Shown piece by piece: positions 23,693 through 28,408 of a DNA stretch of 64,000 nucleotides. The stretch lies in the NCBI GenBank assembly GCA_017795005.1, contig CP051242.1, positions 434,001 to 498,000 on the forward strand, in the 5' to 3' direction. Below the pieces are notes generated by a model. The model searched no databases. It was given only the letters and a program-made list of their open reading frames with translations, and was not told where the DNA came from. This DNA is from Balneolaceae bacterium (lineage in GTDB: Bacteria > Bacteroidota > Rhodothermia > Balneolales > Balneolaceae). Each line of letters opens with the position of its first letter. Position 1 is the stretch's first letter. Both the position numbers and the translations under genes were made by a program.

Positions 23693-25075
23693 TTAACGAC
23701 CTCTTCTTCTCCTTCTTTTTCTACGTCTCCATGGAGCATCAATTTGCCAGTCACCAGCCATGATACAACCGTAAGGCAGGATTTTATCCACTACTTCGCC
23801 CAAGCCAAATTCTTTCATTTGATCCTGAACGTTTTGAGCATTTTTGTATGCACTTGGTAATTCAGAAATATCAATATGGTTCGAGAAAAAGCGGATATCT
23901 AATCCTGCTGTTTCTTCCATGAAGACTTCCTGGATTCCTTTTCCTGCTTTACTGTTAATATGCTGAGTACGACTTACGTTTCTACCAGCGCCATGTGGAG
24001 CAAAGCCCAGATTATTTTCTGAGCTTTCTCCTTTAACAATTAAAACAGGTTCGCTCATATTCAAAGGAACAAGGCGTAAGCCGTCTTTTGAATCAGGCAC
24101 GAACTTATCAGCTAGCGGAGTTGCTCCTTTGGCATGATAGAACAGATCACCATCTTTAAACACGAAGTTGTGTTCATTCCAGAATGAATCAACAATCTCA
24201 GCATTCAATCCTTCAGAAGTCGCTTTGTGAATCACAGAATGATTGAGCTTTGTCCATTCCCGTACAATTTGTAAAGCTTCCCAGTAAGATTGCCCTTTTT
24301 CATCCTCATAAGGAATCCATGCATTTGCCTTCAGGGTTTCAGGAGAAAGTTCTTTCCTGAAATGCTCGGCGATGTTCATTCCTTTGCGATAAAGATTCGC
24401 ACCGAATCCACGGCTTCCATGGTGAGTAACCATGATAGTTTCTCCTGTATTTCTGGAGGTTCCTACAAACAGGAAATGGTTTCCATCACCCTGAGTGCCT
24501 AAATGAGTTTTCGCCAGATGAACACTTCGGTCTGAATTCAGGAAGTAGTTTCCCCGAATTTTTTCTTCCAGCTCAACAGGGAAATCAAACAACTCTGTTC
24601 TTCCTCCTCCTCCAAAATGCGTAACAGAATGGGCGGCATCCAGGACTTTTTTAGGGTCTGCTTTACCAAAAGAAGACATCATTACAGAACAGCACACATC
24701 GGCTGAATGCATAGCAGGGTGAATCGCGTTTTTTGCAACAGCTACTCCACCCACGGGAATCTGCCCTTTTTCGCCGGTTGGACAGGCATCAGGCATAACT
24801 GCTCCAGCCACCAATGTTGGAGTTTTCATAAGAGTATCCATGGTTTCAAAAACGCTTTCCACGTTAGACTGCTCTACTTCTGATTCAGCACGAATATTTT
24901 TATGATATTCGACTGGCTGGTCAAATGGTTTTACCGGAGGTGGAGGGCATACAGAATCCAGATAAGAAATCAGTGCTTCTCCTTCCAGGTTATGTTGATT
25001 TGCAAATTCGATGGCTTCTTTAAACCATCTTCCCGGATGATATCCGAGCTCAATAAGATTTTGTCCTTTAATCAT
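23693..25075 (-). CDS. rtcB: RtcB family RNA ligase
   Basis: RtcB joins RNA ends carrying 2',3'-cyclic or 3'-phosphate to 5'-OH using GTP and Mn2+. With the ATG at 25075 the protein has 460 residues. Expected residues are present: metal-site Cys128 (HSADVCCSV), GDGNHF (His200), THHGSRGFG (His218), and the guanylated His361 in [11 protein letters not shown]. The C-terminus ends in a very basic tail, [12 protein letters not shown], possibly an RNA contact. An ATG at 25105 would add 10 residues but lies inside RNA unit 5, so 25075 is preferred. It is on the same strand as, and downstream of, the Ro60 homologue and the RNA array, forming an RNA-repair locus. Confidence 0.95.
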
Positions 25076-25094
25076 AGTCTTCTTGTATAAAAAT

Positions 25095-25160
25095 GAAGGC
25101 AACATTTGAACAGAGGTTGTTATTCAGTTATGGTGAAGTATCTCTGTTCGACAGCACTTC
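25095..25160 (-). ncRNA. Y RNA-like unit 5 (minimal, no T-arm)
   Basis: A 66-nt unit read on the minus strand. The outer stem GAAG-[U]-GC pairs with GCCUUC, then the UGUC internal loop, then inner stem GAACAGAG (25142-25149) with CUCUGUUC (25108-25115), 8/8 pairs. AUACUUCAC follows the inner stem. The body is only about 20 nt without tRNA features. The 3' strand is followed by AUUUUU. It overlaps the longer candidate start of rtcB and may also influence rtcB translation. Confidence 0.6.
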
Positions 25161-25177
25161 AATGTAGTTAATAAGGT

Positions 25178-25272
25178 AAGGGCTACAGCCGACTTGTCGT
25201 AACTGGATTCGAACCAGACTTACTCATTGCTGAGTTTTCAACCATCGAAGTAGGACAAGTCTACAGCACCTT
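25178..25272 (-). ncRNA. Y RNA-like unit 4 (hairpin plus T-arm)
   Basis: A 95-nt unit. Outer stem AAGG-[U]-GCU with AGCCCUU; internal loop GUA against GGCUGU; inner stem GACUUGUC (25254-25261) with GACAAGUC (25191-25198), 8/8 pairs. CUACUUCG follows. The body has hairpin ACUCA-GCAA-UGAGU (25222-25235), resembling a class II tRNA variable arm, and T-arm CUGG-UUCGAAU-CCAG (25203-25217). There is no D-arm or anticodon arm. Confidence 0.7.
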
Positions 25273-27256: not shown

Positions 27257-27303
27257 TTTTCTAAGGTTGATTTTTTATTCACAATTCAATGATAAAACCT
27301 AAG

Positions 27304-27324
27304 TGCGCAGTCTTTTTGCGCAGT
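27304..27324. promoter_or_regulatory. Paired TGCGCAGT sites in the TROVE/WYL divergent promoter
   Basis: Two direct copies of TGCGCAGT (27304-27311 and 27317-27324), spaced 13 bp start to start; each contains the palindrome TGCGCA. They lie in the 102-bp spacer between divergent genes and are the only GC-rich element there. A likely binding site for the WYL regulator. Confidence 0.5.
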
Positions 27325-27361
27325 AGAATTTTTTTTCTCATTTTTTAAAAAAAATTTTGTG

Positions 27362-28408
27362 ATGCCCGTAAACAGAAATGCTTTAATACGATATCGGACT
27401 ATTGATAAGTGCCTTAGGAACAGGCAGAAACTTTGGACGCTTGATCAATTAATCCATGAATGTTCGGAAGCTTTGTACGAATATGAAGGAATTGAAAAAG
27501 GAGTAAGCAAAAGAACCATTCAGTCAGATATCCAGATTATGCGTTCAGATAAACTGGGGTATAATGCACCAATCATTGTAAAAGAAAAGAAGTATTACAC
27601 CTATTCGGACCCGGAATATACCATTACAAATATCCCGCTAACTGATCAGGATTTGGTAATGCTGAATGAAGTTGTGGAGATATTGAAGCAATTCAAGGGC
27701 TTTTCTCATTTTGAGGATATGGAAGAGATGGTAAAGAAACTGGAAGACAAGGTTAACACCAGTAAGTCAGAAAACAGGTCTATTATTGACTTTGAAAAAA
27801 CAGAAGGTTTGAAAGGGATTCACTATCTGGATGAATTATATCAGGCAATTCAGAAAGAACAAGTTCTTAAAATTACCTATCAATCATTTCGTGCAAGAAA
27901 ACCAGGTCAGTTCGAATTTCATCCTCAATTTTTGAAGGAATTTAATAACCGGTGGTTTCTGATAGGAGTTAAGGGTGAAGGTCAAAATATTATGGTAATT
28001 GCACTGGACAGAATAAAGAAAATAGAAAGTGCAAATGATCAGGAGTATATAAAGATTGATATAACTGCTAAGGAATATTTTAAGGAGGTAATTGGAGTTA
28101 CTGTTAGTCCAACCTCAAGGGCAAGGAAGGTTAAAATTTTTGTGGATAGAAGAATGGCTCCATATGTAGTGACAAAACCTCTTCATCCTTCCCAGAAAAT
28201 CGAAATGATTATAAATGGGGGAGTAATTATCAGTTTAACAGTTCAATTAAATTTCGAGCTTGAAGGTAAAATTTTAAGTTTTGGAGACTCTATGAAAGTA
28301 ATTGCTCCCAAAAAGTTGGTTACTCAGATCAATAAAAAACTTCGGTTAGCAATTAAAAATTATGAGAACTTAAATTACCCTTATAATGAACATGTAAAGG
28401 GAAATTAA
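27362..28408 (+). CDS. WYL-domain transcriptional regulator of the RNA-repair locus
   Basis: A 348-residue YafY-like regulator when started at the ATG at 27362 (a GTG lies directly before it). N-terminal winged HTH about residues 15-70 (LWTLDQLIHECSEALYEYEG, SKRTIQSDIQIMR). The WYL domain is about 155-225 (LKITYQSF, RWFLIGVKGEG, with WFL instead of WYL). A C-terminal WCX-like extension ends the protein. WYL domains bind nucleic-acid-related ligands and regulate several stress and defence systems. Divergent placement beside the TROVE gene points to control of this locus. Confidence 0.9.
   Translation: MPVNRNALIRYRTIDKCLRNRQKLWTLDQLIHECSEALYEYEGIEKGVSKRTIQSDIQIMRSDKLGYNAPIIVKEKKYYTYSDPEYTITNIPLTDQDLVMLNEVVEILKQFKGFSHFEDMEEMVKKLEDKVNTSKSENRSIIDFEKTEGLKGIHYLDELYQAIQKEQVLKITYQSFRARKPGQFEFHPQFLKEFNNRWFLIGVKGEGQNIMVIALDRIKKIESANDQEYIKIDITAKEYFKEVIGVTVSPTSRARKVKIFVDRRMAPYVVTKPLHPSQKIEMIINGGVIISLTVQLNFELEGKILSFGDSMKVIAPKKLVTQINKKLRLAIKNYENLNYPYNEHVKGN

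Follow-up and report, generated by a model that had tools for sequence, protein, structure and literature searches.

A Ro60–Y RNA–RtcB locus of a Balneolaceae bacterium and its divergent WYL gene: a candidate RNA-damage operon of Bacteroidota

Layout of the Locus and Identities of Its Genes

The window considered here is a 64,000-nucleotide stretch of the genome of a Balneolaceae bacterium. Within it, rsr, a non-coding stretch, and rtcB lie on the minus strand, and a gene for a WYL-domain protein is divergent from them. The Ro60, tRNA-mimic RNA, and RtcB locus with a WYL gene that had been proposed from the letters of the DNA is therefore real, and its coordinates had been placed correctly. 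The protein-coding genes are as follows:

rtcB, 23693..25105, minus strand: divergent RtcB-family RNA ligase (Pfam RtcB, PF01139, 115 bits, cut-off 27)
rsr, 25736..27256, minus strand: TROVE/Ro60 ortholog with a vWA domain (PF05731 and PF25045 above cut-off)
WYL gene, 27362..28408, plus strand: WYL-WCX transcription regulator with an N-terminal HTH, the proposed activator of the operon

In Pfam, Rsr is recognized by the TROVE family PF05731 with 87.8 bits (cut-off 23) and by the Ro60 vWA family PF25045 with 30.1 bits (cut-off 27.7). Its vWA domain bears the MIDAS motif DxSxS in the form DVSGS at residues 328–332, and the protein matches the solved TROVE chains 9l5y and 9kop. The binding of Y RNAs by Rsr is predicted from adjacency and from the conserved RNA frame on the rsr strand. 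RtcB is above the Pfam cut-off, yet below those of NCBIfam, and hence divergent; when aligned to archaeal RtcB from P. horikoshii (4dwr), it retains the catalytic motifs GNHF, HxGSRG, KGAT, and HGAGR, the first of which reads GDGNHF. In a locus of the same genus (L008:6645-7859, minus strand), rtcB is of a different type, with 27% identity to the window RtcB, so that the ligase has been swapped in place with Rsr, WYL, and the operator retained. The WYL protein scores 46.4 bits for WYL and 37.7 bits for WCX in Pfam, both over cut-off, and the ATG at 27362, used as in relatives, is preferred as its start over the GTG at 27359.

The gap of 630 bases between rsr and rtcB holds five RNA modules, and no ordinary tRNA genes are detected by ARAGORN within the window. 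The original prediction pointed out a lack of RtcR and RtcA. For RtcR it holds genome-wide, as a profile search with PF06956, positive for an E. coli control, finds no RtcR in the whole genome; for RtcA it holds at the locus, where no ORF encodes this enzyme.

The flanking genes, according to Pfam, are ordinary (an AraC regulator, a lipoprotein-like gene, an SDR, a beta-lactamase-fold gene, and PqiA), and several of them are absent around the locus in relatives. A role against tRNA-cutting toxins or phage had also been suggested. Neither the Pfam annotation of the flanks nor PADLOC gives any sign of a phage-defence island in or next to the locus; no known defence genes were found there, and PADLOC models match the WYL protein alone. 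A viral origin of the locus was considered and rejected, only one distant viral contig having been found. A contig classed as viral (L090, IMG/VR, 36 kb) carries two tRNAs and an Rsr with 43% identity, whose strand also bears Y RNA modules; at this rsr there is neither a WYL gene nor the operator.

The Y RNA Array

Only a small number of species have been used to study bacterial Ro60 proteins and Y RNAs, whose purpose is unsettled. With a covariance model trained on module 1 together with 15 relatives, one detects exactly five modules in the window, all on the minus strand, with E values from 2e-22 to 4e-4, the next match being at 0.6:

Y RNA module 1, 25592..25711, minus strand: covariance model E 2e-22
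Y RNA module 2, 25438..25578, minus strand: YrlA-like, permuted tRNA opened at the anticodon side; E 3e-4
Y RNA module 3, 25277..25425, minus strand: class II tRNA-like head opened in the D loop; E 4e-4
Y RNA module 4, 25178..25272, minus strand: reduced head with a variable-arm-like hairpin and a T arm; E 2e-8
Y RNA module 5, 25093..25162, minus strand: bare frame without a tRNA-like head; E 5e-7

All five are built on one frame. Its outer stem is variable and is followed by a bulged U and a GYYGU/GUYRC helix; next come a second stem (i:k), likewise variable, and a conserved (A)UACUUCG ahead of the head. When modules were sought by sequence alone, with no pairing required, 244 of them were collected near 78 Rsr genes; the two sides of the outer stem pair better than any of 1000 permutations, and those of the i:k stem better than any of 300. 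The covariance model finds 273 modules in 78 sources, every one (273/273) on the rsr strand. In an alignment of 99 modules, drawn from 29 loci, pairing is kept in 94.4% of cells and both partners vary in 22 of 25 pairs; the covariation score reaches 0.57, compared with 0.19 for shuffles and at most 0.15 for slid partners. This alignment was fitted to the structure and has a few rows in or near the training set; the permutation test on modules found by sequence only is less biased for this reason. An additional frame helix between ACUUCG and the 3′ CGAAN was not adopted: module 5 cannot form it, and together with the covarying i:k stem it would make a knot.

tRNA Mimicry in the Y RNA Heads

After rotation and trimming, ARAGORN reads a tRNA in 60 of 118 module heads and in none of 118 shuffled ones, while no tRNA is read in the unrotated modules. 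Many heads are therefore circularly permuted tRNAs, in agreement with the view of these RNAs as tRNA mimics from which the analysis started. The anticodons that ARAGORN reports for rotated YrlA-type heads were dismissed as artefacts, since the loop concerned is the Y stem.

Head types differ within the array: there is a YrlA-like permuted tRNA, a D-loop-opened class II cloverleaf, two reduced heads, and one bare frame. Module 2 is matched by the Rfam YrlA family (RF02553) with 36.7 bits and an E value of 4e-5, under the gathering threshold of 69; according to the cmscan alignment and rotation, a long basal stem carries a permuted tRNA head, in which T arm, capped acceptor, and D arm follow one another as in YrlA itself (structure 6CU1, according to PMC8394870). 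Unlike YrlA, modules 1 and 3–5 have other head types and no Rfam YrlA match, and module 3 is opened in the D loop; these four are filed as Y-RNA-like, with only the frame in common.

Once the head of module 3 has been de-permuted, by a cut at its capped acceptor end and closure at the D loop, ARAGORN reads it as a full cloverleaf of class II in which the D arm is Leu-like and the anticodon loop aberrant. This means that the Y stem leaves from the D loop. No specific tRNA identity is claimed for this module because its D arm is Leu-like, but its top score among the genome's own tRNAs is with Pro, owing to an 18-nt identity in the T arm and acceptor. The same D-loop-opened cloverleaf is present in a relative from another family (L033).

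Module 1 comprises a T arm, an extra arm, and a GGGG/CCCC helix with a second short helix, in pseudoknot order. The pseudoknot strands covary in relatives (CGC/GCG, GUC/GAC, GGCU/AGCC), and their mean pairing is 3.8 versus 3.3 when permuted, with 0 of 2000 permutations as good. No Rfam family matches this head in the window (25592-25711) or in relatives. An assignment of module 1 to tmRNA was rejected, the Rfam match covering the T arm only with 13.5 bits.

23S-like Modules and tRNA Arrays in Relatives

In nine relatives, the head of a Y module begins, right after UACUUCG, with a segment of 23S rRNA helices 69–71, and later parts appear to resemble 23S helices 90–93. The mimicry was detected by comparison with the genome's own 23S rRNA and with a model. 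In two relatives, 33 of 33 and 32 of 33 bases of the segment are identical, and the domain continues into a covarying consensus fold found in several Bacteroidota families. The modules are 200–380 nt long, and those in four loci scanned against Rfam gave no match at E ≤ 1:

23S-like modules: L039:7068-7307, L034:3412-3650, L086:10451-10673
23S-like modules: L058:8349-8576, L068:9008-9228, L036:12555-12769
23S-like modules: L033:8374-8622, L024:5186-5383, L073:10825-11206

In several relatives, complete tRNA genes are interspersed with the Y modules or found in their vicinity (17 in L028, 16 in L058, 11 in L043, and 10 in L024), and such arrays may possibly represent spare tRNAs:

tRNA arrays beside rsr (9 to 17 genes): L028:3515-10038, L058:1292-3290, L043:4088-5233, L024:3581-9149, L034:10-667

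Genes for RlaP, Hen1, Pnkp-ligase, Rnl1, Band-7, and RNase H-like proteins also recur at the Rsr loci of relatives. The window has none of these genes, no 23S-like module, and no tRNA array. One relative bears, beside an unlinked WYL gene, a second Rsr with 45% identity, accompanied by Y-motif matches and by three tRNA-like genes, of which one has the anticodon CUA; the regions concerned are L124:653-2261 and L124:3209-3436, both on the minus strand.

Do the heads act as decoys? It is quite conceivable, if somewhat doubtful, that their role is confined to tethering Rsr to PNPase or gating the RNA-binding cavity of Rsr, as is the case in Deinococcus and Salmonella, and that several copies provide dosage or alternative partners. 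Rsr–YrlA does bind PNPase, giving the RYPER machine (PMC8394870, PMC9879122), and module 5, with no head at all, could be understood in the same way; on the other hand, the heads of a single array are very unlike one another, as are those of different species, the loop at which they open varies, and nine relatives have imitations of 23S rRNA instead of tRNA, none of which would be needed for a single PNPase tether. The 23S-like and D-loop-opened Y RNAs of relatives point to a class of RNA mimics wider than YrlA.

The Operator and the rsr Promoter

The intergenic regions between rsr and the WYL gene have in common a palindrome, TRCGCAA-N5-YTGCGYA, which in the window is found together with a promoter element:

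Candidate WYL operator, 27304..27322, unstranded: 19-bp site, TGCGCAAAAAGACTGCGCA on the rsr strand
−7 box of the rsr promoter, 27287..27294, minus strand: Bacteroidota-type, TATCATTG, at a fixed distance from the operator

Counted within 250 bp upstream of rsr with at most two mismatches, the palindrome is present in 66 of 78 loci versus 0.1 in shuffles, whether WYL is adjacent or not, and is missing in about 12. The 3.75-Mb genome has a single copy of the operator; in relatives, it also precedes Y arrays, rtcB, and Rnl1, and at some loci the start of the WYL gene has a second site nearby. When 69 rsr promoters are aligned at the operator, two invariant T residues appear 14 and 15 nt downstream, within a −7 box of the TAnnTTTG type, and this fixed spacing implies that the site occupies the −33 region. 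In a sample of 158 genomes from the phylum, the strict site occurs in 12 of 18 genomes with the WYL ortholog against 11 of 140 without it (P = 5e-8); the latter fraction approximates the background of the backward pattern and was taken as chance.

Linkage and Co-Occurrence of the WYL Gene with Rsr

The linkage of the WYL gene to rsr, whose loss in relatives would have counted against the original prediction, is kept: a WYL gene is near rsr in 39 of 80 Bacteroidota Rsr loci, mostly one or two genes away and nearly always divergent. Among 58 genomes of the order, WYL proteins with at least 65% identity occur in four only, namely those with Rsr, where the gene adjoins rsr; outside these four, the identity is 40% or less. 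In the sample of 158 genomes, where the ortholog set is delimited by a clear score gap (460 to 328 bits), 18 genomes have the WYL ortholog, 11 have Rsr, and 8 have the two together (P = 7e-7); two of the three Rsr genomes without the ortholog have a split or partial Rsr. All 12 tested Rsr genomes that were picked for lacking an adjacent WYL gene have the ortholog elsewhere, with 48–60% identity, the next paralog reaching at most 37%.

Unlinked WYL genes adjoin RtcB, RlaP, Rnl1, Pnkp-Hen1, or Band-7, mostly with the operator nearby. Most WYL-bearing genomes without Rsr likewise show RNA-repair neighbours and the operator, the neighbours including Pnkp-Hen1 and Band-7, with no such neighbour in L159, L163, and L165. 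In three genomes devoid of Rsr (L162:406-6153, L166:425-5958, and L158:1731-5985), WYL and the operator lie beside Pnkp-Hen1, Rnl1, or Band-7/RtcB, and one operator therefore seems to serve unrelated repair modules. Since operator and WYL accompany such varied genes, the regulon seems to cover RNA repair in general, of which Rsr and the Y RNAs would be one output.

It might be objected that WYL genes are common, that roughly half of the loci have no WYL gene adjacent to rsr, and hence that the WYL gene is merely a common neighbour, the palindrome being bound by some other protein. We consider this highly improbable in view of the significance of the WYL–Rsr co-occurrence and because the operator goes along with WYL at other loci, and also in genomes that lack Rsr, in several of which it is found about 50 bp from the WYL start. 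That a WYL protein stands in for RtcR, as had been proposed, is supported: the linkage is kept, the gene co-occurs with Rsr, and a dedicated palindrome is present at the rsr promoter. The predicted regulatory link between WYL and the operon, which rests on comparative sequence analysis, is well supported.

Fold, Ligand Pocket, and Sign of Regulation

The model of the WYL protein (pLDDT 81.5, pTM 0.52) is most similar to DriD bound to ssDNA and DNA (E 6e-14), followed by PafBC, BrxR, and CapW. DriD and PafBC (8tp8, 9fnd), the best fold matches, have the same HTH-WYL-WCX architecture and, likewise, a site over −35/−33 at fixed spacing; they differ from the protein described here in sequence (about 15% identity), in the first ligand arginine, which is replaced here, and in the regulon, which here consists of RNA-repair genes. 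DriD is an activator triggered by ssDNA, whose sites overlap −35 at a fixed distance from −10 (PMC12340889). The response of PafBC to ssDNA depends on two arginines of its WYL domains, and ssRNA has no effect on this protein (PMC11804915). At the place of the R-x-x-R ligand motif, R-L-D-R in DriD, all 22 aligned proteins have A-L-D-R, i.e., the first arginine is changed to alanine and the second is kept, in a mapping that runs through the DriD alignment and extends to PafBC by inference. The ligand may therefore differ from ssDNA, and the protein is filed as a WYL regulator resembling DriD rather than as an ssDNA sensor. Damaged tRNA or a cyclic-phosphate end, the kind of signal envisaged in the original prediction, would be a candidate.

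It is possible, yet on balance doubtful, that WYL senses ssDNA in the manner of DriD and PafBC and that the operon is an arm of the DNA-damage response, RNA repair being induced because genotoxic stress also leads to tRNA cleavage. Such a scheme agrees with the regulatory part of the explanation preferred here and differs from it in the ligand; it draws on the best structural match, DriD with ssDNA, and on the Salmonella operon, which is induced by DNA-damaging agents through tRNA cleavage (PMC7790460). However, the first arginine of the ssDNA pair (PMC11804915) has given way to alanine without exception in the 22 proteins, and the recurrent neighbours are RNA-repair genes, with no DNA-repair gene among them.

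A site at −33 is usable by activators and repressors alike, and WYL might cover this region, keep rsr–rtcB off, and be released on damage like CapW or BrxR. Both of these were indeed matched, more weakly, and the second site near the WYL start in some loci would allow autoregulation. Repression is nevertheless unlikely, as the fixed spacing from the −7 box is the geometry of the DriD activator (PMC12340889) and DriD and PafBC, which contain WCX, are much closer matches than CapW and BrxR. This DriD-like geometry favours activation, and by analogy with DriD we infer that the WYL protein probably activates rather than represses.

A Proposed RNA-Damage Circuit

The genes, the five RNAs with their fold, the operator, the promoter geometry, and the tie of the operator to WYL and to RNA-repair genes have been shown here by computation. 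The explanation that we prefer, and regard as probable, is an inducible RNA-damage operon in which a dedicated WYL activator is the Bacteroidota counterpart of RtcR, with Rsr, Y RNAs, and RtcB as its output. A nucleic-acid ligand produced by damage would fill the WYL/WCX groove, and the ligand-bound dimer would then recruit RNA polymerase from the palindrome, to which it binds in the −33 region of the promoter of rsr. One transcript, presumably a single transcription unit, would supply Rsr, five Y RNAs, and RtcB. RtcB would reseal RNAs with 2′,3′-cyclic phosphate or 3′-phosphate and 5′-OH ends, while Rsr, loaded with Y RNAs via their shared stem, would handle damaged or misfolded RNA. The tRNA-shaped heads may recruit or occupy tRNA-binding proteins such as PNPase, modification enzymes, and possibly tRNA-cutting nucleases.

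The known system closest in layout is the Salmonella rsr-yrlBA-rtcBA operon, with the same order of rsr, Y RNAs, and rtcB, a divergent regulator gene (PMC7790460, PMC9879122), and a YrlA-type RNA. In contrast to Salmonella, there is no RtcA at this locus and no RtcR in the genome, there are five Y RNAs instead of two, and a WYL protein with a −33/−7 type promoter is found where Salmonella employs the sigma-54 activator RtcR, which senses RNA with a 2′,3′-cyclic phosphate (PMC9879122, PMC7790460).

A wider reading may be offered only tentatively, being rather unlikely as a whole: a phylum-wide RNA-damage regulon of Bacteroidota, in which one WYL activator sensing broken RNA instead of ssDNA would control ligases, end-healing enzymes, and Ro60-bound decoy arrays. 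The decoys would be permuted tRNAs that differ in the loop at which they open and, in part of the species, mimics of 23S rRNA helices 69–71; together with spare tRNAs, they would absorb or outlast RNases attacking translation.

Significance

Modular RNA-repair systems were reportedly surveyed by Burroughs and Aravind in 2016, with the RtcB, RlaP, Pnkp, Hen1, Rnl1, Band-7, and TROVE families among them, and these families recur in the loci of relatives described here. We know of no description of a common WYL operator joining RNA-repair modules into one regulon.

With a specific regulator, a 19-bp single-site operator, and distinct Y RNAs, the inducer, the WYL ligand, and the partners of the heads become testable. 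The locus is a candidate for a new RNA-damage control circuit, whose operator tracks one dedicated regulator across the phylum, and if it is true that WYL senses RNA ends, this would be a second, unrelated solution to the problem that RtcR solves.
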